22,334 nt of DNA from a virus. The notes under the pieces were generated by a model. The model searched no databases. It worked only from the letters and a program-made list of their open reading frames with translations, and was not told where the DNA came from. Shown here one piece after another: positions 2 to 21,365 of this stretch. The stretch is taken from positions 1 through 22,334 of IMG/VR virus record IMGVR_UViG_3300027418_000503; one strand, 5' to 3'. Positions within the stretch are counted from its first letter, which is position 1. The number at the start of each line of letters is the position of its first letter. A program made the position numbers and the translations under genes.

Positions 2-862
2 TGGATTGAGTCACCATTTTTCAACCAACTATTAGAAAAATCAGATTTAACTGATAAACAAAAAGAAGATTGTAAATTTTACAATGAAAATGGTTACCTT
101 GTTATAGATTTAGAATTAACTGATGATGAGATTTCACCAATAGTTAATGACATGTATAATGCATTGGACGATGAAAAAACAAAATATCATGCTGACCATT
201 TTCAATACACAGAAAGTAAAAGAGTTTTTGAATATTGGAGAAATAGTGACTCAATTGCTAATTTAACAATTCACCCTAATATTATTAATACCCTTAGTTA
301 TTTATATGGAAAAACACCATTCCCATTTTCAACAATTAATTTTGTTAAAGGTAGTAATCAACCACTTCATAGCGATACAATACATTTTCACACAATACCT
401 CACCTTTGGATGGTTGGTGTATGGATTGCGTTTGAAGATGTTGACGAAACTAATGGTACTTTAAGAATTGTACCAGGAAGTCATAAATGGCCAGTATATG
501 AATATCACAATCTTAATTTACCACACCCTGATACCATTGAAAATGGTGAGGCTCACAATTATAAAATATATGAAGATTTTTTAGTTGAGTTAATAAAAAG
601 TAAAAACGCTTCTGAAAAAAATATAAAATTAAAAAAAGGTCAGGCGTTAATATGGGCTGCTAATATGCTACACGGAGGTTGTAATGTTGAAGGTGTAACA
701 GATTTAAATAAAACAAGATTAACTCAAGCAAACCACTACTTTTTTGAGGGGTGTTCTAAGCACTACCACCCAATGTTTTCAAGACCATTAGACGGACAAT
801 ATGCACTTAAATGGTGTAACGATGACAATAACATTAAAACTTACTTAAATAATAAAAAATGA
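2..862 (+). CDS. Phytanoyl-CoA dioxygenase (PhyH)-family 2-oxoglutarate/Fe(II) oxygenase, 5'-partial
   Basis: The frame is open from base 2, so the start lies left of the window; the ATG at 152 is internal. Residues before it (FYNENGYLVID) match the typical PhyH N-terminus. Counting from base 2, the probable iron ligands are His123 and Asp125 (HSD) with a distal His224 (LHGG), and Arg239 is a candidate 2-oxoglutarate-binding residue. About 286 residues are visible, a normal family length. PhyH enzymes hydroxylate small molecules or biosynthetic intermediates in the cytoplasm using O2 and 2-oxoglutarate. The stop overlaps the next start as ATGA (859-862), so it is cotranslated with a DegT-like gene and gmd. 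A role in modifying a sugar or glycan precursor is inferred from context; the substrate is unknown. Confidence 0.8.
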   Translation, partial: WIESPFFNQLLEKSDLTDKQKEDCKFYNENGYLVIDLELTDDEISPIVNDMYNALDDEKTKYHADHFQYTESKRVFEYWRNSDSIANLTIHPNIINTLSYLYGKTPFPFSTINFVKGSNQPLHSDTIHFHTIPHLWMVGVWIAFEDVDETNGTLRIVPGSHKWPVYEYHNLNLPHPDTIENGEAHNYKIYEDFLVELIKSKNASEKNIKLKKGQALIWAANMLHGGCNVEGVTDLNKTRLTQANHYFFEGCSKHYHPMFSRPLDGQYALKWCNDDNNIKTYLNNKK

Positions 863-1458
863 ACTTTGAGGTAGTTTCAACTTTTGAAAATAAAATTTCG
901 GAATTTTTTGGTGCTTCGTATGCTGTTGCGGTTGATAGTTGTACACACGGATTAGAATTATGTTTAAGACACACCAACGAAACCAAAATTAATGTACCTA
1001 AAAGAACTTATTTATCAGTACCATTTTTAGCTGAAAAAATTGGTTTAAAAAGAGAATGGAGAGATGATGATTGGGAAAAATATTATACCATAAATTATGG
1101 TGATAAAAGAATTATAGATGCCGCTGTATTATGGGAAAAAAATAGTTATATTCCTAATACCTTTATGTGTATTAGTTTCCAATATCAAAAACATCTTTCA
1201 TTGGGTAGAGGTGGTGTAATTTTAATTGATAATGAATCTGATTATATTTCATTGAAAAAAATGTCTTATGATGGAAGATTACCAAATATACCTTGGCGAG
1301 ACCAAGACATTGACACAGTTGGTTTTCACTATTACATGACACCAGAAACAGCACAATTAGGATTGGATAAACTACAGACGGCAATAGATACACCACCAAG
1401 ACAATGGGTGGTTACTGATTGGCCAGATTTAACAGAAATGCAAATCTTTAAAAAATAA
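859..1458 (+). CDS. Short DegT/DnrJ/EryC1/StrS-type aminotransferase-like protein
   Basis: The N-terminus (EFFGASYAVAVDSCTHGLEL, residues 15-34) is the classic start of DegT-family PLP sugar aminotransferases. Asp87 in IIDAA fits the Asp that contacts the pyridine nitrogen of PLP, and Lys111 in SFQYQKHLSLGRGG fits the Schiff-base lysine. The protein is only 199 residues against about 370 for the full family, so much of the large domain and the C-terminal small domain are reduced or missing. The stop is clean and the next gene follows after one base, so this looks like a stable short form and not a frameshifted remnant. Next to gmd, the expected chemistry is 4-amination of GDP-4-keto-6-deoxymannose (perosamine synthase type). 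Activity of the short form is uncertain. Confidence 0.7.
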   Translation: MNFEVVSTFENKISEFFGASYAVAVDSCTHGLELCLRHTNETKINVPKRTYLSVPFLAEKIGLKREWRDDDWEKYYTINYGDKRIIDAAVLWEKNSYIPNTFMCISFQYQKHLSLGRGGVILIDNESDYISLKKMSYDGRLPNIPWRDQDIDTVGFHYYMTPETAQLGLDKLQTAIDTPPRQWVVTDWPDLTEMQIFKK

Positions 1459-1459
1459 T

Positions 1460-2470
1460 ATGAAAAAAGCGTTTATAACAGGTATCAACGGTCAGGACGG
1501 TTCATACTTGTCAGAATATTTATTATCCTTAGGATATGAAGTTCATGGTATTGTCAGAAGAAATTCCGTACCAGAACATCAACAAAGTCGTATTGAAACC
1601 ATAAAAGATAGAATGCACGTTTACTATGGTGACGTATTGGACCAAACAAATTTACAAAAATTATTAGATAAAATACAACCAGATGAGATTTATAACTTGG
1701 CGGCACAAAGCCACGTTAGAATTAGTTTTGATATTCCTGAATTTACATTACAAACAAATTCAAGTGGTGTTTTAAATATATTAGAGGCGTATAGAAGAAG
1801 TTGCCCAACCGCAAAATTTTATCAAGCGTCATCATCTGAAATGTTTGGTAATTCAGTGGATAATGATGGGTTCCAAAGAGAAACAACACCTATGACACCA
1901 GTGTCGCCATATGGATGTTCTAAATTGTGTGGATATTCATTAGTTAGAAACTATAGAAGAGCCTATGGGTTACATGCTGTTAATGGAATATTATTTAATC
2001 ACGAATCACCAAGACGAGGTTCAAATTTTATTACAAATAAAGTTGTTAAAACTGCTGTTGAAATTAAACACGGTATTAAAGATAAGTTAGTTGTTGGTAA
2101 TATGGACTCGTACCGAGATTGGGGTCATTCTAAAGATTATGTCAGAGCGATGCACTCAATGTTAAACCACCATACCCCTGACGATTTTGTTGTTTCAACA
2201 ATGGTGACACATTCTGTTAGAGAAATGATTGATTATGTTTTTACAAAATTAGGTTTGGATTATACAAAATATGTAATTCAAGACCAAGAATTTATGAGAC
2301 CCGAAGAATTAAAATACCTTAAAGGTGACTCAACTAAAATGAGAAAAGAATTTGGGTGGGAACCTGAATATTCATTTGAATCTTTAATGGATGAAATGAT
2401 TGAACATTGGGAAGAACAAATTAGAATTAATAATATTATTGATAAACACTCAAAAAATAGTGAAAATTAA
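1460..2470 (+). CDS. gmd: GDP-mannose 4,6-dehydratase
   Basis: This is an NADP-dependent short-chain (extended SDR) enzyme that converts GDP-mannose to GDP-4-keto-6-deoxymannose, the branch point to fucose, rhamnose and perosamine. Visible motifs are the Rossmann glycine motif GINGQDG (8-14), the RR NADP-binding pair near residues 33-34, SSSE (124-127), the catalytic Tyr151/Lys155 pair (YGCSK) and NHESPRRG (180-187). The 336-residue length is close to the usual 340-370. It starts one base after the DegT-like gene and overlaps the following glycosyltransferase, so the four genes probably share one transcript. The substrate would come from the host GDP-mannose pool, since no mannose-activating gene is visible here. 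Confidence 0.95.
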   Translation: MKKAFITGINGQDGSYLSEYLLSLGYEVHGIVRRNSVPEHQQSRIETIKDRMHVYYGDVLDQTNLQKLLDKIQPDEIYNLAAQSHVRISFDIPEFTLQTNSSGVLNILEAYRRSCPTAKFYQASSSEMFGNSVDNDGFQRETTPMTPVSPYGCSKLCGYSLVRNYRRAYGLHAVNGILFNHESPRRGSNFITNKVVKTAVEIKHGIKDKLVVGNMDSYRDWGHSKDYVRAMHSMLNHHTPDDFVVSTMVTHSVREMIDYVFTKLGLDYTKYVIQDQEFMRPEELKYLKGDSTKMRKEFGWEPEYSFESLMDEMIEHWEEQIRINNIIDKHSKNSEN

Positions 2471-3509
2471 AATTGTTTTTTATTCACATACAATTGATTA
2501 CGCTGGTACTTGGAGGTCCCACGAACAAATATTACTTAATTTAAATAAAAACATATTTCAACCATATGTGTTGTATAATCAAAATGTTAATCACAATAGA
2601 TTAAATTTTGTTATAGAAAATTTAGGTAATGAATATGTAATTCCATTTTCAGCATCAACTGAAAAGACAGGTCCTGATTTGGGATATTCTTTTATATCAA
2701 CCAATTTTGAAGAAAAATTATTAGATATTAATCCTGACATAATTCATTACGCACGAAGTGGATACTACGAATGGCCGTTCACAAAAAGATTATCCCCTAT
2801 CCAAATTGAAACGAACATTTTTGGGTTTAAAGATTCAACACCTTTTTTAGATTATTCCATTGCAATTTCAAATACAATTAAAAATATTAGGGGTGGAGCA
2901 AATGAAGTAATTTACAACCCAATACCAAAACCAATTAATAATAATGAAAATTTAAAGAAAGAGTTAAACATTTCTGAAAATACATTTGTCTTAGGTCGTA
3001 TTGGAAGACCCGATAATTTTACACCTATTTCAATAGAATGTGCTAAAATTATGAAAGAATCTAAAATTGATTTTAAATACATTATTATAGGGGCTTGTGA
3101 TTTAATTAAGAACAAAATTAAAGAACTTGATTTGGAAGATTTTTTTATACTTTTAGATACCACTAATGATGATAATTTAATACATAAATTTTACAACACC
3201 ATTGATGTGTTTGCACATTATAGAAGTGATGGTGAAACATTTGGGGTGTCAATCGCCCAATCAATGACTTATGGAAAACCAGTTGTTTCACATATTGCTG
3301 GGTCAAATGGACAATCGGAAATAATTGGGGATTCAGGATTTGTTGTTAAAAATTCTATGGAGTATTTTCTTTCGATATTAAAATTAATAAAAGATAAAAA
3401 TCTATATAAAAATTTATCAGATTTGTCTATTAAAAACAGTGAACAATTCCAAATACAAAATATTATACCTAAAATTGAATCAACTTATTTAAGTTTATTA
3501 AAGAAATGA
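2460..3509 (+). CDS. Glycosyltransferase, GT4-like (GT-B fold)
   Basis: The chosen start is GTG at 2460, which gives MKIKIVFYSHTIDYAG, a normal GT-B N-terminus, and overlaps gmd by 11 bases. The in-frame ATG at 2400 would add 20 low-complexity residues lying over gmd coding sequence and is unlikely. The C-terminal half has the nucleotide-sugar binding region of GT4 enzymes (FVLGRIGRPDNFTP, then DGETFGVSIAQSMTYGKPVV). The usual E-x7-E pair appears as Glu259 and Gln267, so the second acid is replaced. It probably transfers an activated sugar, perhaps the product of gmd and the DegT-like protein, to a glycan or protein. Donor and acceptor are not deducible. It ends as ATGA with the next gene. 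Confidence 0.8.
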   Translation: MKIKIVFYSHTIDYAGTWRSHEQILLNLNKNIFQPYVLYNQNVNHNRLNFVIENLGNEYVIPFSASTEKTGPDLGYSFISTNFEEKLLDINPDIIHYARSGYYEWPFTKRLSPIQIETNIFGFKDSTPFLDYSIAISNTIKNIRGGANEVIYNPIPKPINNNENLKKELNISENTFVLGRIGRPDNFTPISIECAKIMKESKIDFKYIIIGACDLIKNKIKELDLEDFFILLDTTNDDNLIHKFYNTIDVFAHYRSDGETFGVSIAQSMTYGKPVVSHIAGSNGQSEIIGDSGFVVKNSMEYFLSILKLIKDKNLYKNLSDLSIKNSEQFQIQNIIPKIESTYLSLLKK

Positions 3510-4366
3510 AAATATTAATTATACAAGAAAACGGAAGACATCTTGAAAATAGAGAATTTAGAGAGTGTTTTAATTTACAACGAGCCTTATTGAGAAAAAA
3601 TGTGGATACAATTGTTTGGGGTTTAGGACATGATAATTTTAATACTTCTTTCCAACAAATAATAAAAGATATTGATGTTATAATTCTTTTGGAAAACTAT
3701 GAATCAAATGGATGGTTACCTGACTTAAGTAATATTAATAAATTAAAAATATTTTGGAGTATTGATTCACACATGGTGTTAATGAACCATATTACAACTG
3801 TTGTAAAAAATAAAATAGATATTGTTCTTAATGCTATTGAGTCACATCAAAACTACTTTAAAACTTCAAAAACTTTTTACTTTCCAAATGCTTACCCATC
3901 TGATTTAATATCACCAATTGACGGGATTGATAAAAATACATTTTTAGGATTTTGTGGTTCATTGTTAAACCGTTCTGAAATATTAGATAAGTTAGAAAAT
4001 AAATTTGGATTAAAAAAAGATATTTGGAAATTAGGCAATGAAATGATTAAAACAATAAATGGTTATAAAATACATTTTAATAAGACATTATCTAATGATA
4101 TTAATTATAGAATTTTTGAAACTATGGGTTGTAATACTTTGATATTAACAAACCATACCGAAAATATTAATACATTTTTTAATGACATGGAGAACATTGT
4201 CATTTACAACAATGAAACTGAATTGTTTGAAAAATTAAATATATTATTATCAGATAATGATTTAATAAAGAAGATTAGTAATTCAGGATATAAATTAGTT
4301 AAAAACAATCACACATATGATAATCGTGCCGATGTTTTACTTAAAATAATTAGTGATTACATTTAA
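3506..4366 (+). CDS. CgeB/YkvP-like glycosyltransferase
   Basis: The 286-residue protein starts with MKILIIQENGRH, a Rossmann-type strand. It ends with a pattern typical of the CgeB-type glycosyltransferase C-terminal domain (Glyco_trans_1_2): YRIFETMGCNTLILTN around residues 200-215, a run of acidic and hydrophobic positions, then a terminal Tyr-Asp-x-Arg-Ala segment (TYDNRADVLLKII). The N-terminal half has a weaker GT-B pattern. It overlaps the preceding glycosyltransferase by an ATGA junction and is the last gene before a 9-base gap to phoH. Such enzymes in phages are usually taken to glycosylate virion or surface structures. The target here is unknown. Confidence 0.7.
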   Translation: MKILIIQENGRHLENREFRECFNLQRALLRKNVDTIVWGLGHDNFNTSFQQIIKDIDVIILLENYESNGWLPDLSNINKLKIFWSIDSHMVLMNHITTVVKNKIDIVLNAIESHQNYFKTSKTFYFPNAYPSDLISPIDGIDKNTFLGFCGSLLNRSEILDKLENKFGLKKDIWKLGNEMIKTINGYKIHFNKTLSNDINYRIFETMGCNTLILTNHTENINTFFNDMENIVIYNNETELFEKLNILLSDNDLIKKISNSGYKLVKNNHTYDNRADVLLKIISDYI

Positions 4367-4375
4367 TTTTAAATT

Positions 4376-5125
4376 ATGGATAATAAAAAACCGAGAAGAA
4401 ACTCTACAGTATTTGTTGAGGACTCAAACCAACAACACAAGAGTAAAAAAGAAATTATTAGTACTTTAATTAAGAAAAAAACAAAAGATAAATTTTTGTC
4501 AGATAGTCAAAAAGAGTATTATGAAATACTACAAAACAATCAAATAACAATTTGTTCAGGTCCGGCAGGTGTAGGTAAATCATATATTGCAATGAAAGCG
4601 GCTGTTGATTTATTAGCCGACCCCAACAATTCTTACGAAAAATTAATTATTGTAAGACCCGCTGTTGAAGCTGAAGAAAAACTTGGTTCACTACCTGGTA
4701 ATGTTGAAGAAAAATTAGACCCTTATATTTTCCCATCTTACTATCTTTTAAATAAAATTATTGGAAAAGATATTAGGGAAAAATTAAAAAATATGGAAAT
4801 TATTGAGGTTTTTGCTTTGGCGTATATGAGAGGTATGAACATTGATAACTCAATTCTTATTTTTGAAGAAGCTCAAAACTGTACACCAAAACAAATGAAA
4901 CTTCTTTTAACAAGAATTGGATTTAACAGTAAATTTTTTATATCGGGTGATTTAGAACAAACTGACCGATACAAAGACAAAACACATTCAGGATTATGGG
5001 ATGCTTTAGAAAAGTTTAAAAACATTGATGATATTGGAACTTTTACATTTAAAGATTCTGACATTGTTAGAAATGCGATAATTACAAAAATATTAAAAAA
5101 ATACGAAGATGAAGTTCGCTTTTGA
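4376..5125 (+). CDS. phoH: PhoH-like P-loop ATPase
   Basis: The 249-residue protein has a Walker A motif GPAGVGKS (62-69), the PhoH signature around RPAVEAEEKLGSLPGN (94-109) followed by EEKLDPY, a Walker B ILIFEEAQN (160-168) and the sensor-like SGDLEQTD (190-197). The first 40 residues are basic and probably disordered. PhoH-type ATPases are very common in marine and freshwater T4-like phages; proposed roles include RNA metabolism or phosphate stress, and the phage function is not settled. The last 17 bases overlap the next gene, which implies translational coupling with a HAD-like protein. Confidence 0.92.
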   Translation: MDNKKPRRNSTVFVEDSNQQHKSKKEIISTLIKKKTKDKFLSDSQKEYYEILQNNQITICSGPAGVGKSYIAMKAAVDLLADPNNSYEKLIIVRPAVEAEEKLGSLPGNVEEKLDPYIFPSYYLLNKIIGKDIREKLKNMEIIEVFALAYMRGMNIDNSILIFEEAQNCTPKQMKLLLTRIGFNSKFFISGDLEQTDRYKDKTHSGLWDALEKFKNIDDIGTFTFKDSDIVRNAIITKILKKYEDEVRF

Positions 5126-5720
5126 TACTGATGAAGTTTTAAGAGACACAATCTCTAAAATGAAGGCAACTTATGAAAAATTTTTTATTGAGGATTATGT
5201 TTCTGAAGAAGGTGAGGAAGAGTTTGAATATAAAATAATTGAACCTATTACATCACACAAATTTTCAGAACATTTTTTATTTCCATCCGACGGTGATTAT
5301 ATAAATTTTATGTATTTGGATTTCCCTATGAATATTTTTGGACATTCACCGTCAATTTCTGCAAATACGTTTAATATTTTTTCAGAAATTCAAAAAACAG
5401 TTTTATCTAAACGAGATAAATTAAGTGTTATTGGAATGGGAGTTGCAAAAATAAAACCAGCATCTTTATTTTTTTATTCAAAATATGGAATGGAGGCTGA
5501 CAACATACAATTTTATAATAAAAAAACAATAAAGAAAATTTGGTCTAAGTTTGATGTTATTGTTACTGCAAATCCCGACCTACTTGAAATTAAACCTAAA
5601 AATAAAATTTCAATTAAAATTAACACAGAATATAATAAAAATTATCAGTCAGATTTTTCAATAGATTCTATTGAAGGTTTTACTTCGGTATATAATCAAT
5701 TAAAATTAAAACATGCTTAA
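5109..5720 (+). CDS. HAD-superfamily-like protein
   Basis: The 203-residue protein opens with MKFAFDTDEVL, a HAD motif I (Asp6 nucleophile, Asp8 acid/base). Lys116 in AKIKPASLFF could be the motif III lysine, and FDVIVTANPDLL (148-159) resembles the motif IV region. The Ser/Thr expected just upstream of the lysine (motif II) is not obvious: the strand reads VIGMGV (107-112). HAD enzymes of this size are commonly phosphatases or 5'-nucleotidases. The substrate is unknown and the missing motif II residue may mean weak or altered activity. It overlaps phoH by 17 bases and the next small gene by 8 bases. Confidence 0.5.
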   Translation: MKFAFDTDEVLRDTISKMKATYEKFFIEDYVSEEGEEEFEYKIIEPITSHKFSEHFLFPSDGDYINFMYLDFPMNIFGHSPSISANTFNIFSEIQKTVLSKRDKLSVIGMGVAKIKPASLFFYSKYGMEADNIQFYNKKTIKKIWSKFDVIVTANPDLLEIKPKNKISIKINTEYNKNYQSDFSIDSIEGFTSVYNQLKLKHA

Positions 5721-5979
5721 CATATTAGGACAACAATATTACATTGATTTTCAAAAAATTGAAGATTTAATTGCAATCCAACAAACAAACACAGGTGATA
5801 CTGAACAAAATATTAGTATCGTTAAATTTGAGTTAATAAAAACAATGTTAGATGTTGTCTTTTCAGAATCGGGAGATATTGATGAAAAGATGGGTTTAAA
5901 AGGAAGTAATGATTTAACTATTCCTTTTAAAATTGCATTCAACACATTATTAAGATACGGAATAATAGAAACACTATGA
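5713..5979 (+). CDS. Hypothetical protein, 88 aa
   Basis: This small acidic protein is not recognised. It has no signal peptide, membrane segment or Cys pair. It is held between two overlapping neighbours (8 bases with the HAD-like gene, an ATGA junction with the following glycosyltransferase), and this arrangement is the main support that it is real. The second half (residues 40-88) looks helical. No function can be given beyond membership in the phoH-to-sigma operon. Confidence 0.65.
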   Translation: MLNILGQQYYIDFQKIEDLIAIQQTNTGDTEQNISIVKFELIKTMLDVVFSESGDIDEKMGLKGSNDLTIPFKIAFNTLLRYGIIETL

Positions 5980-7031
5980 ATACAGAACTTATAACAAAAT
6001 TAGAACTATCCATTGGTAATCTAAAAGAAAAAAAATCTAGAATATATTTTTTAGTTCAGGATACTAAAGGAAACGCAAAAGCCTCAATTAGAGTGACTTA
6101 TGAAATGGCTTACCATTTGTTTGAAAATGGTTACAACGCAATTATTATGCATGAACAAAGTGACTATAAAGGTGTGTCATCTTGGTTAGATGAGAAATAT
6201 ATGTCATTACCACATAAACCAATTGAAGGTCAAAATTTAGAAATTTCACCTGAAGATTTTATGGTAATACCTGAACTATATGGTCACGTAATGGAACAAG
6301 TTTCAAAATTCCCTTGTGGTAAAATTGTACTTTGTCAATCATATGATTATATAATGGAAACACTAAGTCCTGGTACTTCTTGGTCACAATATGGTTTTTT
6401 AAAATGTATTACAACTAGCGAAGAACAAAAACAGCACTTGGAAAAAATAATGAAGAATGTTTCATTTGACATTATTAAACCAACAATTTCAAGTTCTTTT
6501 GAAAAGAAGTCGGTACCAGCTAAACCAATTGTTTCAGTGCATACCAGAGACCAAAGAGATACTATGAAATTAATTAAAACCTTTTATTTAAAATACCCAC
6601 AATTTAGATGGATTACTTTTAGAGACATGAGAGGTTTGAGTGAATGGGAGTTTGCGTCAATATTAAAAGATTCATTTGTGTCAGTATGGATTGATGATGT
6701 ATCGGGTTTAGGAACTTATCCGTTAGAATCTATGAAAACAGGAACACCCGTTATTGGTAAAATACCTAATTTAAAACCTGAATGGATGACTGAACACAAT
6801 GGTATTTGGACAAATGATACAATTAATATGTCAGATATATTAGCTGAGTTCACACAAAATTGGCTTGAGGATAATATTTCTGAAAAATTGTATGAGTCAG
6901 GTAATGAAACCGCTGAAAAATATACAAACACGGATGATTTTAAATCAAATGTTTTGGAACGTTTTTCATCGTATATAAACACGAGATTAAATAATTTTGA
7001 ATCTCAATTAGAAAAATTAAAAACAAATTAA
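5976..7031 (+). CDS. Glycosyltransferase-like protein (GT-B, GT4-like C-terminal half)
   Basis: The 351-residue protein has an N-terminal Rossmann-like half (RIYFLVQDTKGNAKASIRV, then FENGYNAIIMHEQS). Its C-terminal half resembles glycosyltransferases: a strand-helix after VSVHTRDQRD, then LGTYPLESMKTGTPVIGKI around residues 245-263, which aligns with the donor-binding segment of GT4 enzymes. The first Glu of the usual E-x7-E pair is not present. It sits in the same operon as a GT2-like gene that begins 2 bases downstream, so the pair may act in sequence on one acceptor. The donor sugar is unknown. Confidence is moderate because only the C-terminal pattern is clear. Confidence 0.6.
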   Translation: MNTELITKLELSIGNLKEKKSRIYFLVQDTKGNAKASIRVTYEMAYHLFENGYNAIIMHEQSDYKGVSSWLDEKYMSLPHKPIEGQNLEISPEDFMVIPELYGHVMEQVSKFPCGKIVLCQSYDYIMETLSPGTSWSQYGFLKCITTSEEQKQHLEKIMKNVSFDIIKPTISSSFEKKSVPAKPIVSVHTRDQRDTMKLIKTFYLKYPQFRWITFRDMRGLSEWEFASILKDSFVSVWIDDVSGLGTYPLESMKTGTPVIGKIPNLKPEWMTEHNGIWTNDTINMSDILAEFTQNWLEDNISEKLYESGNETAEKYTNTDDFKSNVLERFSSYINTRLNNFESQLEKLKTN

Positions 7032-7033
7032 TT

Positions 7034-7843
7034 ATGGAAAATAAAGTAGATATTTCAGTTATATTACCAATTGCATCGTCTTTTGGAAAAGATTTTGATA
7101 TTCTTTTTGAAAAGGCTATTGACTCAATTAAAAAACAACAAATTGCAATTAATGAATTAATTATTGTACATTCAGATGAAGAATCATTGTGTAATAAATT
7201 AAATTCATTTGATTTTGGTGATTTAAATGTTGTTAAAGTTTTAAACTCATCAGACCATACCGATTACGCAACTCAAATAAATCTTGGTATTCAAAACGCT
7301 AAATCAAATTGGGTTAGTTTTTTTGAACATGATGATGAATATTCATTTATTTGGTTTAAAAACGTAAACGACTATATCAAATATCATCCCGAGTGTGATG
7401 GGTTTTTACCAATTGTTGTTGATGTTGATGAGACAGATGTGTTTGCGGGTTATACAAATGAAGCAACATTCGCGGCTTCTTTTAACACAGAAATTGGTAT
7501 TTTGACAAACGATTTATTAAACCAATATCAAAATTTTCAAACTAGTGGTATGGTTGTTAAAAAATCAATCTTAGATAATTTTGGTGGGTTTAAAAAATCA
7601 ATGAAATTAACATTTGTTTACGAGTTTCTACTTAGATTGACGTATAATTCTGCTAGAATTATGACAATACCAAGATTAGGATACAAACATGTTAACATGA
7701 GGGAATCATCAATTTTTTGGAGTTATAAAAATGGGAATAATACCCTCACAGATAATGAAGTAAAATTTTGGATTGACACCGCAAAAAAAGAATACTTTTT
7801 TACTAATGACCGTGACATAAAATACGAAGAAACCAATAGTTAA
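7034..7843 (+). CDS. Glycosyltransferase family 2-like protein
   Basis: The 269-residue GT-A-type protein begins with VDISVILPIAS, the first strand of GT2 enzymes. It has LIIVHSDEE at 42-50, and the segment ATQINLGIQNAKSNWVSFFE runs into the acidic metal-site equivalent EHDDE (98-102). The later stretch with SGMVVKKSILDNFGGF and YEFLLRL fits the acceptor-side region of this family. No membrane segment is visible, so it is probably cytosolic. Its stop overlaps the sigma-factor start as TAATG. It probably adds a sugar to a phage or host component; the donor and acceptor cannot be read from the sequence. Confidence 0.75.
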   Translation: MENKVDISVILPIASSFGKDFDILFEKAIDSIKKQQIAINELIIVHSDEESLCNKLNSFDFGDLNVVKVLNSSDHTDYATQINLGIQNAKSNWVSFFEHDDEYSFIWFKNVNDYIKYHPECDGFLPIVVDVDETDVFAGYTNEATFAASFNTEIGILTNDLLNQYQNFQTSGMVVKKSILDNFGGFKKSMKLTFVYEFLLRLTYNSARIMTIPRLGYKHVNMRESSIFWSYKNGNNTLTDNEVKFWIDTAKKEYFFTNDRDIKYEETNS

Positions 7844-8611: not shown

Positions 8612-8619
8612 ATATTTAT
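8612..8619 (+). promoter_or_regulatory. Candidate late promoter element ATATTTAT
   Basis: The octamer lies in the 25-base gap after the sigma-factor gene, 4 bases before the ATG of the 125-aa gene. The same octamer occurs on the coding strand before seven other late-type genes. It is the likely entry point for transcription of the 8624-12938 virion genes. With this spacing the message would be leaderless or nearly so. Confidence 0.5.
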
Positions 8620-16129: not shown

Positions 16130-17956
16130 TTATCTCAATTCTCTTAAGTCAAATGTTCTAACACCATCAACTGTGATTTTACCGTAGAAACGGTTGTTCA
16201 CCATCTTCTTAGCGTATCTTGTCATGATACCTTTGATAGGTGTGAAGTTGAATGGGTTATACATTGTTGGAGTCAATTGTAATGGTACGTATGGTGCGTA
16301 CACATAACCTGTGTCTAACAATGAGTTACCTTTATGACCAATCAATACTGTGTTTGGTGGGAAATAAGGGTCTCTGTAAACTTGGTATCTACCAGCCAAA
16401 GTTCCAACTCTTTCAATACCCATGTTATATTGGTCTTGCTCAGGAGCTGCGTTTGATACGTGGAAGTATTCCAAATCATCAAAGATTGCACTGATTTCAG
16501 AAGAAACAACAATCCAGTTAGCACCACCTCTCAATGTTGATTTGTGGATTTGAGCTGAAAGTTGGTTGATTGCAGTAATCAATGTTTGGTTCCAATCTTT
16601 TTGAGTGTATTGTGTTAATGGATTTGAAGTAGTACCTCTCTTCCAACCGTTGTAATCCCATCTTAAAGTCCATGCTGCGCCTTTTCTCAAATCTCTCAAG
16701 ATTTCTCTATCAATTTCAGCCGCAACTTGCTCAGACAATAAAGCTGTTAATTCAGCTTCTGCGTCAATGTTGTGGAATGCTGCAACGTCTTGTGCTAATT
16801 CAGGAGACCATTGTGCTCTCAATTTTCTTTCAGTTACAGAAACTGTTACTGATTCCAAATCAAAAGAAACTTCACCGATTTCATCTTCAAATTCTAAGTT
16901 CTTATATGCTCTATAAGTACATTTGAATGCTTGGTTGTATGGTGTAGTTGCTGGGTGTGCTTGAGTTGTGAAACCTGAGTAACCGTCCATTGAGTTTGAA
17001 CCCACTGAACATGGAACTTGTGTATCAACCTCTAAGTAAATAACACCGTCAGCAGTACAAATGTCATCATATTGACCACCGTTACCATATGGCCAAGAAG
17101 CTGTTGCTTGTGAACCATACTGAACAATACCTTTTCCGTATTTTTGAGTTACAACTCTGAATAACAAAGGACCTGTACCTAAGCTAGTTGTTAATGAAGT
17201 ACCTGAGAAACCGTTACCACTTGCGTTAGTAACAACTCTTACTTCTAAACCACTTAAGAAAGCTTCTGAATCTTGTTCGTTACCATCAGGACCAACTAAT
17301 TTACCTTGACCTGCTGATTGGAAACCAGAAAGAGCGATAATAACTTTTCTGTATTCCTGACTTGCAGTGTACGCAGATTGTTGTAAGTTAGCACCGTTCC
17401 AAGCTTGTGTAGAAGCTGTGATAGTTACAGCACTGAATGTACCTTTAGAGTAATCAAATAACCCTGGAGGGTCTAATGCCGCTTCGTTACCTTCGTAGAA
17501 TCTGTCATACAAATTCTTGTCGTTTGCTCCATAACCAGCGTTTGTTGTTGATGGTCCATCTGGTGCTCCGAAAGGTGCGAAGTGTGTACCACCAGCAGTT
17601 GGGTCTTGACCCATGTCATAACCCTGAATTTTAGGTACGAAGTAGAACAATTTACCGATAGGTAAGTTCATAGCTTGTACAGATACGATGTCGTTAGCCA
17701 ACAATTTAGAGAAAACTCTTCTTACGATTGGAAATACAACCGTTTCGAAAGAACCGTCTGATGCTGTGCTAGCAGCTTCGTTAATTAAGTGAGATGCTTG
17801 GTTTTCATAAAGTTGAGCGATGTTTTCTTTAACGTGTCCTCTCAAACCTTCCAAGAATCCTAATTTGTCCCATTTGTTAATAGTATCTTCTTTGATAACT
17901 TTAAGGTGCTTAAGACCGATGTTACCAACAAGACCTGATTCTAATAATGCTCCCAT
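16130..17956 (-). CDS. 23: Major capsid protein gp23
   Basis: The 608-residue protein forms the hexamers of the head shell. Recognisable T4-like gp23 features are the helical N-terminal delta region (1-60), FETVVFPIVRRVFSKLLANDIVSVQAMNLP at about 69-98, YFVPKIQG after it, and the C-terminal RYAKKMVNNRFYGKITVDGV. A gp21-type processing site (I/L-x-E) is visible as INE at residues 58-60, followed by AAS, close to the position cleaved in T4. It is longer than T4 gp23 (521 aa), with a Gly/Ser/Thr/Ala-rich insertion around residues 120-340. It follows gp22 by 38 bases with an A/T-rich leader and no Shine-Dalgarno, and ends at a strong terminator. Base composition is visibly richer in G+C than in the sugar genes, as expected for a very highly expressed gene. 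Confidence 0.95.
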   Translation of the reverse strand: MGALLESGLVGNIGLKHLKVIKEDTINKWDKLGFLEGLRGHVKENIAQLYENQASHLINEAASTASDGSFETVVFPIVRRVFSKLLANDIVSVQAMNLPIGKLFYFVPKIQGYDMGQDPTAGGTHFAPFGAPDGPSTTNAGYGANDKNLYDRFYEGNEAALDPPGLFDYSKGTFSAVTITASTQAWNGANLQQSAYTASQEYRKVIIALSGFQSAGQGKLVGPDGNEQDSEAFLSGLEVRVVTNASGNGFSGTSLTTSLGTGPLLFRVVTQKYGKGIVQYGSQATASWPYGNGGQYDDICTADGVIYLEVDTQVPCSVGSNSMDGYSGFTTQAHPATTPYNQAFKCTYRAYKNLEFEDEIGEVSFDLESVTVSVTERKLRAQWSPELAQDVAAFHNIDAEAELTALLSEQVAAEIDREILRDLRKGAAWTLRWDYNGWKRGTTSNPLTQYTQKDWNQTLITAINQLSAQIHKSTLRGGANWIVVSSEISAIFDDLEYFHVSNAAPEQDQYNMGIERVGTLAGRYQVYRDPYFPPNTVLIGHKGNSLLDTGYVYAPYVPLQLTPTMYNPFNFTPIKGIMTRYAKKMVNNRFYGKITVDGVRTFDLRELR

Positions 17957-19337: not shown

Positions 19338-19547
19338 TTACTCAAAAACTTCGTCAATTTTACTTTCACTGACTGCCGTTATTCGCCAATCGTGTTGAAA
19401 TGATTTAAATTTCTCAGTTACTTTCGCTTCAACGTCTGTTACGCTGTAACCTTTAACTAATTTCTCTTCTCTAACTTTTTTGATTTTTCCTGAGTTTTCA
19501 TCAATCAAGTCGTACTGAATTTTTGCTACAAAATATTTTTCGTCCAT
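19338..19547 (-). CDS. DUF4494-like small protein, 69 aa
   Basis: The sequence (YFVAKIQYDLIDENSGKIKK, then LVKGYSVTDVEAKVTEKF and ending WRITAVSESKIDEVFE) fits my memory of DUF4494, a small family found mainly in Bacteroidetes genomes and their phages. Its function is unknown. It lies 10 bases after gp21 on the same strand and just before a terminator. In T4 no gene sits between 21 and 22, so this is an accessory insertion in the head block. It is one of the clues to a Bacteroidetes host. The match needs a profile search. Confidence 0.55.
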   Translation of the reverse strand: MDEKYFVAKIQYDLIDENSGKIKKVREEKLVKGYSVTDVEAKVTEKFKSFQHDWRITAVSESKIDEVFE

Positions 19548-19557
19548 ATTAATTATT

Positions 19558-20280
19558 TTATCTATATCCCAAAAAGTCGTTCAATTTTCCCATTAAGTCA
19601 AGCGATTTACTAATACCACCATCAATTCTTCCATTTTCTTTTGATTTTTTTTCTTCTTCAAGATTTTCATCGTATTTGTGACGGTCATCCTTATTAACAA
19701 ATAGATATGCCCCTGGTGTAGATGGATTCATAACTAAGTCAAAACAAATCATTTCATAATCATTTTGAACTTCATTGTGTTCACCTTTTTTTGCTAAGGA
19801 ACCAACACCACGTGAAGAAACCCCCATTGTAACACCTTGTCTCATTAAGTTTGCCGCAACATCACCCTTAGATGATACAATACCTCTTTCATGAAAACCT
19901 GGTGTTGTCAACAATCTTAGTTTACCTATAAGAACATTATCCTCCCACCATATATCATCAATAATGTGTGATACTCTGTCCAAATCAATCAAAGATGATT
20001 CAGGGTGGTTAAGTTCTGATGTTGCCAAACCTTTAGATATTGTTTGTTTATATTTTTCAGCTTCTCTTTTTAATATATTTTCAGGATATACACGACCATT
20101 TCTATTTGGTGTACCATACTTTTGTAATGTTGCGTAAAATACAAATGGTTTAGAGTGGTCTAATTGTGATTTTTGTTCATTAACAAAATCATTATCTACG
20201 GCATTTTTCATAGATATATGACCTGCATCATATTCTATCAATATTCCTTTACCTATTTCATTCGGTTTAAGTATCTTCAT
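19558..20280 (-). CDS. 21: Prohead core protease gp21
   Basis: The 240-residue protein is a serine protease of the T4 gp21 type that digests the scaffold and trims the capsid protein during head maturation. Visible features are TPNRNGRVYP (57-66), the catalytic His92 in ELNHPES, GVSSRGVGS (153-161) with the probable nucleophile Ser155 or Ser156, and FDLVMNPSTPGAY (180-192). The C-terminal 40 residues are charged and may be self-cleaved. The start at 20280 follows an A/T leader with a palindromic pair of octamers. The upstream 152-aa gene ends 23 bases before it. Confidence 0.92.
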   Translation of the reverse strand: MKILKPNEIGKGILIEYDAGHISMKNAVDNDFVNEQKSQLDHSKPFVFYATLQKYGTPNRNGRVYPENILKREAEKYKQTISKGLATSELNHPESSLIDLDRVSHIIDDIWWEDNVLIGKLRLLTTPGFHERGIVSSKGDVAANLMRQGVTMGVSSRGVGSLAKKGEHNEVQNDYEMICFDLVMNPSTPGAYLFVNKDDRHKYDENLEEEKKSKENGRIDGGISKSLDLMGKLNDFLGYR

Positions 20281-20762: not shown

Positions 20763-20874
20763 TCTTTTTCATTTGTGAAATGTTTATTTGTTGTAGTGAA
20801 AATATAATAAAAAAATACTTATTAACAAATTTAAATTTATTTGTATATTTATATCAATAACACACATTTTTTAT
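20763..20874. promoter_or_regulatory. Divergent intergenic region between the 152-aa gene and bS21
   Basis: This 112-base, very AT-rich gap must hold start signals for both directions. On the plus strand ATATTTAT lies at 20845-20852, 22 bases before the bS21 ATG. No octamer is evident for the minus-strand gene, whose leader has CAAATAAACA instead. No Shine-Dalgarno sequence is visible on either side. Confidence 0.45.
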
Positions 20875-21069
20875 ATGATAAAAATTATAATTGGAAAAGG
20901 TGAAAGTTTAGAAAAAGCTTTAAAACGTTACAAACACAAAGTTATCAAAACAAAACAAATTGAACATCTTCGTGCTAAACAAGAGTATTTGAAAAAATCA
21001 ACTCTTAAAAGAGAACAAATAAAAAAGGCTAAGTACAAACAACAAATCGCCCAAAGTAACATTGACTAA
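20875..21069 (+). CDS. rpsU: Phage-encoded ribosomal protein bS21
   Basis: The 64-residue basic protein fits bS21 of the 30S subunit along its length: IGKGESLEKALKRYKHKVIK (6-25), the LRAKQEYLKKSTLKRE segment (32-47) and KKAKYKQQ (50-57). Its length matches Bacteroidetes bS21 (about 64 aa) rather than E. coli bS21 (71 aa). bS21 sits near the 3' end of 16S rRNA and affects mRNA recruitment. In Bacteroidetes it helps to hide the anti-Shine-Dalgarno sequence; Tyr54, which I recall as a key residue in Flavobacterium, is at position 54 here. The gene is paired with a holin-like gene on the strand opposite the head block. It may replace the host protein on ribosomes late in infection, which is inference. 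Confidence 0.8.
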   Translation: MIKIIIGKGESLEKALKRYKHKVIKTKQIEHLRAKQEYLKKSTLKREQIKKAKYKQQIAQSNID

Positions 21070-21076
21070 TATTTAT
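21069..21076 (+). promoter_or_regulatory. Candidate late promoter element ATATTTAT before the holin-like gene
   Basis: The octamer begins on the last base of the bS21 stop codon and lies 21 bases before the ATG at 21098. It could let the holin-like gene be expressed late even if bS21 is made from its own start. Confidence 0.45.
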
Positions 21077-21097: not shown

Positions 21098-21337
21098 ATG
21101 AAAAAATTTATTATGAATTTACTAGGAAACGGTTCTGACGTTTCATCAAAAAGATTCGCATCTTTATTTACATTATTAAACGTAATTGTCTTAACTTACA
21201 TTGCAACACTTACATCTAAAGAAGGTATAACACCTGAATATATGTTTGATGCTCTTTGTTTAATTGCTGGTGGTGGATTAGGACTTACAGTTGTAGAAAA
21301 GATTTTCTCAAAAGGTTCAGACAAAAAAGCTGAATAA
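21098..21337 (+). CDS. Holin-like small membrane protein, 79 aa
   Basis: A basic N-terminus is followed by two predicted membrane segments, residues about 20-39 (FASLFTLLNVIVLTYIATLT) and about 48-67 (YMFDALCLIAGGGLGLTVVE), and a charged tail. Size and topology fit a small two-span holin, and similar proteins (SSKRFA start, PEYMFD loop) are common in Bacteroidetes phages as I recall. A holin would time lysis by permeabilising the inner membrane, but no endolysin gene is in this window. It shares a transcript with bS21 and is followed by a strong terminator. Confidence 0.6.
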   Translation: MKKFIMNLLGNGSDVSSKRFASLFTLLNVIVLTYIATLTSKEGITPEYMFDALCLIAGGGLGLTVVEKIFSKGSDKKAE

Positions 21338-21339
21338 CA

Positions 21340-21365
21340 AAAAACCCCTCTTTTGAGGGGTTTTT
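21340..21365. terminator. Bidirectional intrinsic terminator after the holin-like gene
   Basis: A perfect 11-bp stem, AAAAACCCCTC (21340-21350) with GAGGGGTTTTT (21355-21365), has a TTTT loop. It lies between the plus-strand stop at 21337 and the minus-strand stop at 21369, so it can end both transcripts. Confidence 0.9.

Follow-up and report, generated by a model that had tools for sequence, protein, structure and literature searches.

A phage-encoded, Bacteroidetes-type bS21 gene without the extended Shine-Dalgarno signal common on host rpsU

The window, that is, the whole stretch of DNA analysed here, is a linear virus record of 22,334 bases with T4-like late genes (Table 1). Its bS21 gene lies on the plus strand between two minus-strand genes, for proteins of 152 and 241 aa, and is followed on its 3' side by a plus-strand gene for a 79-aa protein and then by a hairpin. 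Homologues of the bS21 neighbours occur in the same order and on the same strands in most viral contigs with bS21, even where the 152-aa protein is about 37% identical. Homologues of the 79-aa protein occur in the clade of the window and in the L198- and L232-type groups and were not found in most other bS21 groups, and Pfam and PHROG profile searches with this protein gave no family match. No terminase was recognised in the 22-kb window. Beside the late genes, a plus-strand sugar or surface gene cluster (positions 2-7843) includes a PhyH dioxygenase, a GDP-mannose 4,6-dehydratase, and several glycosyltransferase-like ORFs.

Table 1. Features of the window that bear on the bS21 gene and its setting.
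Feature	Position	Strand	Evidence or remark
PhoH	4376-5125	+	profile searches
Major capsid protein (gp23 type)	16130..17956	-	PF07068, 246 bits
DUF4494-type gene	19338-19547	-	profile searches
Prohead protease (gp21 type)	19558..20280	-	PF03420, 76.3 bits; phrog_207
Conserved divergent neighbour, 152 aa	20304..20762	-	divergent to bS21 in most viral bS21 contigs
TATATTTAT, candidate phage late-promoter element	20844..20852	+	22 nt before the start codon
SD-less leader (last 25 nt)	20850..20874	+	anti-SD pairing +2.8 kcal/mol vs -18.4 to -21.6 in Flavobacterium rpsU
bS21 (rpsU-like) CDS	20875..21069	+	PF01165 and TIGR00030 above cut-off; 7jil_z best PDB match; dN/dS 0.16
79-aa protein downstream of bS21, same strand	21098..21337	+	own ATATTTAT at 21069-21076
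Terminator-like hairpin between convergent genes	21340..21365	.	2 terminator-like sites vs 0.1 expected
Conserved neighbour, 241 aa	21369..22094	-	stands immediately before the 152-aa gene where contigs lack bS21

The bS21 ORF starts with ATG and its 64-aa product is MIKIIIGKGESLEKALKRYKHKVIKTKQIEHLRAKQEYLKKSTLKREQIKKAKYKQQIAQSNID. The preliminary description had assigned it to bS21 of the Bacteroidetes type, with an ALKRYK core and a tyrosine at position 54, and this is confirmed. The product scores 38.7 bits (E = 8e-10) against PF01165, for which the Pfam curated cut-off is 27, and 36.3 bits against the equivalog family TIGR00030 (NCBIfam cut-off 28.95). In a phmmer search of the PDB, the top chain was 7jil_z, the bS21 of Flavobacterium johnsoniae, at E = 5e-11 and ungapped over residues 2-60; ALKRYK occupies positions 15-20, and Tyr54 is in register between the two proteins. 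Like the F. johnsoniae protein (7JIL; PMC9976891), the window bS21 keeps Tyr54 and the basic anchors; the two are 44% identical and differ at residues 21-28. The AlphaFold model (pLDDT 87) has helices at 12-26, 28-36, and 41-63. With this model, all Foldseek rows were bS21 chains of ribosome entries, at E values of 0.02 or worse and with F. johnsoniae 7jil absent among them, and the VIA rows were likewise bS21 chains (Z 5.5); the assignment therefore rests on the sequence match. Chance is excluded by the profile scores, by purifying selection, and by the location of the gene, which is conserved across dozens of contigs.

The earlier remark that viral bS21 genes are known from other environmental phages also holds, both in the literature (PMC9723584, PMC6375957) and in the 71 relatives of the window bS21 that were recovered from one viral scan. 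Phage relatives were taken from IMG/VR contigs, since a tblastn search of annotated phage records yielded no more than two weak hits. Pooled dN/dS in the closest clade of the window bS21 (13 haplotypes) is 0.16, which indicates purifying selection. In a tree of 174 bS21 proteins, which has only 64 columns and weakly resolved deep branches, 75 of the 78 phage proteins cluster together within Bacteroidia, in a group that also includes one long-branched host. The hosts that adjoin this group (L367, L372, L390, L360, L251, L365, and Flavobacterium) have anti-Shine-Dalgarno (anti-SD) pairing of -17 to -21 kcal/mol.

Among 138 distinct phage bS21 proteins, K40 and R46 are invariant, and K20, K22, K51, and A52 are nearly so. 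Position 54, where an aromatic residue stacks on A1534 in the anti-SD-sequestering bS21 of the Bacteroidia type, is Y in 134, H in three, and F in one. When 78 phage proteins were compared with 76 host proteins that have an aromatic residue 54, the overlap in residue use was below 0.2 at positions 5, 8, 21, 23, 24, 27, 28, 30, 37, and 53, as well as in the tail. Where host proteins have the motif R-K-F-D-K-T-G-T at 21-28, phage bS21 has x-K-V-I-K-T-K-Q. This contrast reproduces that of Chen et al. 2022 (PMC9723584), who reported Arg21, Phe23, Asp25, and Thr28 as divergent in phage bS21 and the aromatic residue 54 as kept; the residue that they number Asp25 seems to correspond to position 24 here. 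The divergent sites were placed over the mRNA path by the same authors (PMC9723584), and residues 21-28, which are consistently unlike those of host bS21, lie in or beside the helix over that path.

A search with the 152-aa protein as sole query retrieved 80 contigs, and in 74 of these its gene is accompanied by a divergent bS21 gene. Of the remaining six, one is cut too short to tell, and five have the 241-aa gene directly before the 152-aa gene with no bS21 between. The 152-aa protein is therefore rejected as an obligate partner of bS21, and bS21 is instead a discrete slot that is left empty in some relatives. The 152-aa protein of the window has no Pfam or PHROG match, its relatives have only scattered weak matches, and searches of the PDB gave neither a sequence match nor a confident solved fold. 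Its predicted structure is a confident, new-looking alpha/beta model (pLDDT 87), and the same predicted fold was found in one uncharacterised myovirus protein.

Leaders were compared by the duplex energy between the last 25 nt of each and the 16S tail UCACCUCCUUUCU, a general tail sequence applied to all genomes in place of the tail of each. All 80 Flavobacterium-type rpsU loci (69 distinct) have anti-SD pairing energies between -18.4 and -21.6 kcal/mol, whereas the 138 distinct phage bS21 leaders range from -9.7 to +3.0 kcal/mol, with a median of +0.6. Only one phage leader reaches -7 kcal/mol or better, and 137 of the 138 have no Shine-Dalgarno sequence (SD). An extended SD of the kind found on autoregulated rpsU, below about -13 kcal/mol, is present neither in the window nor in any of the 138 distinct phage genes. 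In a phylum-wide sample of hosts with an aromatic residue 54, and with an alternative anti-SD allowed, 18 of 28 pair at -7 kcal/mol or better and 13 of 28 at -13 or better, and ten are without a strong SD. An extended SD on host rpsU is thus common, but not universal.

The absence of an SD extends to the other phage genes, as the preliminary description had noted for this genome. None of 24 window genes has GGAG, GAGG, or AGGA in the last 20 nt of its leader or reaches an anti-SD pairing energy of -5 kcal/mol, and in related phage contigs none of 723 distinct ORFs of at least 120 aa reaches -13 kcal/mol. These phages have SD-less leaders by default, and the SD-less bS21 leader does not of itself imply special selection for loss of the SD. 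A literature search, with most subscription papers and all preprints outside its scope, found no published report of the contrast between SD-less phage bS21 and host bS21 with an extended SD, and the existence of phage copies without the self-limiting mRNA signal of the host seems to be a new observation.

Two further contigs deserve separate mention. L153 (IMGVR_UViG_3300002520_000085, 72 kb) is listed as viral, and its bS21 is 77% identical to the host type. It was rejected as a phage bS21 and left out of the phage set, since both leader and protein match bacterial rpsU (L388 and L401); it is a host-type rpsU with an SD that fits the alternative anti-SD, and the contig is probably bacterial DNA or a prophage flank. 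The viral contig L275 (IMGVR_UViG_3300031227_001734, positions 2001-3318) carries bS21 together with bL12 (PF00542, 73.9 bits). Its bS21 is the only one in the phage set with a partial SD (-9.7 kcal/mol), and in the tree it branches off close to the root of the phage group, a placement that is weakly supported.

A different element recurs in the phage leaders. ATATTTAT is present in 70 of the 138 distinct phage bS21 leaders, or 109 if a looser form is included, and was not found in host rpsU leaders; a TATTT element occurs in most phage bS21 leaders in place of an SD. Sites in the window lie at 8612, 12938, 15848(-), 19260(-), 20297(-), 20845, 21069, and 22099(-). Of the 24 window genes, eight have ATATTTAT on the sense strand in the 50 nt that precede them, compared to a mean of 0.45 in dinucleotide shuffles; it is therefore probably a phage promoter element and a candidate late promoter of this phage group. 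A sigma-70 promoter scan of the window gave results near chance. In some relatives ATATTTAT ends 4-6 nt before the start codon, and such transcripts would be nearly leaderless. F. johnsoniae rpsU has an extended SD and TAnnTTTG, and the window gene has neither; TAnnTTTG occurs in Flavobacterium leaders for 49 of 49 distinct proteins, versus 6 of 79 phage leaders.

By its bS21 and gene arrangement, rather than by TerL clade, the window phage is a further member of the freshwater Bacteroidetes bS21 phages described by Chen et al. 2022. Like those myophages (clades a-e, PMC9723584), it has a Bacteroidetes-type bS21 with an aromatic residue 54 and the same divergent N-terminal positions, and it is AT-rich and T4-like, with PhoH. 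The window and its relatives also share with them a bS21 gene that is reversed among those for prohead protease, capsid, and other late proteins. The clades in that study are defined by TerL, and leaders, promoters, and rpsU autoregulation are not discussed in it (PMC9723584). Similarities to pelagiphage HTVC008M and other viral bS21 (Mizuno et al. 2019, PMC6375957) include phage encoding, purifying selection, and occurrence in mostly aquatic lytic phages. Unlike the window bS21, that of HTVC008M is of alphaproteobacterial-host origin and was tested in E. coli.

On the ribosome, bS21 occludes the anti-SD, and it is reported to be the commonest ribosomal protein in phages. F. johnsoniae rpsU has an extended SD and is better translated by ribosomes without bS21, and is thus autoregulated (McNutt et al. 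2023, PMC9976891). Either a Y54A substitution or loss of bS21 leads to more translation of rpsU and of other strong-SD reporters, and bS21 loss also leads to less initiation on SD-less mRNA (PMC9976891). Phage bS21 is transcribed together with late structural genes (PMC9723584), and pelagiphage bS21 was incorporated into E. coli 70S ribosomes (PMC6375957).

Given this background, we consider it on balance probable that a late, autoregulation-free bS21 would keep 30S subunits replete and the anti-SD sequestered, favour SD-less phage mRNAs, and turn host rpsU down. The product of the phage gene would be a functional bS21 of the Bacteroidota type, and late in infection it would be incorporated into host 30S subunits. 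Its SD-less mRNA would be translatable by replete (bS21-bearing) ribosomes and, because it needs no SD, phage bS21 would escape the host loop, in which ribosomes without bS21 translate rpsU best. The protein would then fill bS21-free 30S subunits, with the anti-SD remaining tucked away, and ribosomes would stay in the state most favourable for initiation on SD-less mRNAs, such as those of the sampled phage genes. SD-dependent translation of host rpsU would be held down, and the host protein would gradually give way to phage bS21. A preference for phage mRNAs may come in addition from the altered residues 21-28.

The position of the phage group in the tree, adjoining hosts with strong SDs, counts in favour of such a supply outside host control. 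The evidence leans to this side because the phage gene is without the SD element by which many hosts limit bS21 synthesis, and selectivity is also possible given residues 21-28. If the host of this phage is a bacterium with rpsU lacking a strong SD, as in 10 of the 28 sampled, there would be no loop to escape. Since translation of rpsU by replete ribosomes is reduced rather than abolished, shut-off of the host gene may also be partial.

The preliminary description had suggested that a phage copy could tune ribosomes toward phage messages or compensate for limiting host bS21, and hypotheses like these two have been published before (Mizuno 2019, Chen 2022). It is possible, though doubtful, that phage bS21 replaces the host protein to change mRNA selection, with altered helix-1/turn residues that favour phage late mRNAs over host mRNAs, as in the model of Chen et al. 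2022. Phage and host proteins share the C-terminal anchors but are consistently unlike at residues 21, 23, 24, 27, and 28, and the placement of divergent sites over the mRNA path (PMC9723584) fits this model. However, apart from the promoter-like element, no phage-specific leader motif was seen for such ribosomes to read, and host mRNAs are mostly SD-less as well, leaving no clear target for selectivity; the residues may just as well have diverged by drift in an old lineage.

It is also possible, though doubtful, that phage bS21 is an ordinary dose supplement and that its SD-less leader is the usual phage leader without regulatory meaning. All sampled phage genes are SD-less, and the bS21 leader would therefore need no special cause; in addition, bS21 is absent in several contigs. 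This would leave its long conservation with a consistent phage-specific sequence unexplained, and, given how host rpsU is known to be regulated, any extra bS21 should repress it all the same; a regulatory effect is therefore expected even if unselected. A poison subunit that damages host translation or frees the anti-SD is very improbable: E. coli ribosomes with pelagiphage bS21 were only ~5% active in vitro, but in a foreign host (PMC6375957), and residue 54 is counted as aromatic in 138 of 138 phage proteins, no extended-SD phage genes would profit from a freed anti-SD (0 of 723 ORFs), and expression is late, when the phage need for translation is greatest. A non-ribosomal role, such as virion packaging with delivery at infection or head assembly, would agree with the location among head genes and was raised, as encapsidation, by Chen et al. 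(PMC9723584), but is most unlikely given that the ribosome-anchor residues are conserved and that relatives with the same head genes lack bS21, which is thus not needed for heads.

Supply outside host feedback, the reading preferred here, sets an SD-controlled host gene against an SD-free phage gene for seemingly interchangeable proteins, and thus leads to a specific prediction for the role of bS21 in infection, namely that phage bS21 would lower the output of host rpsU while its own synthesis continues.
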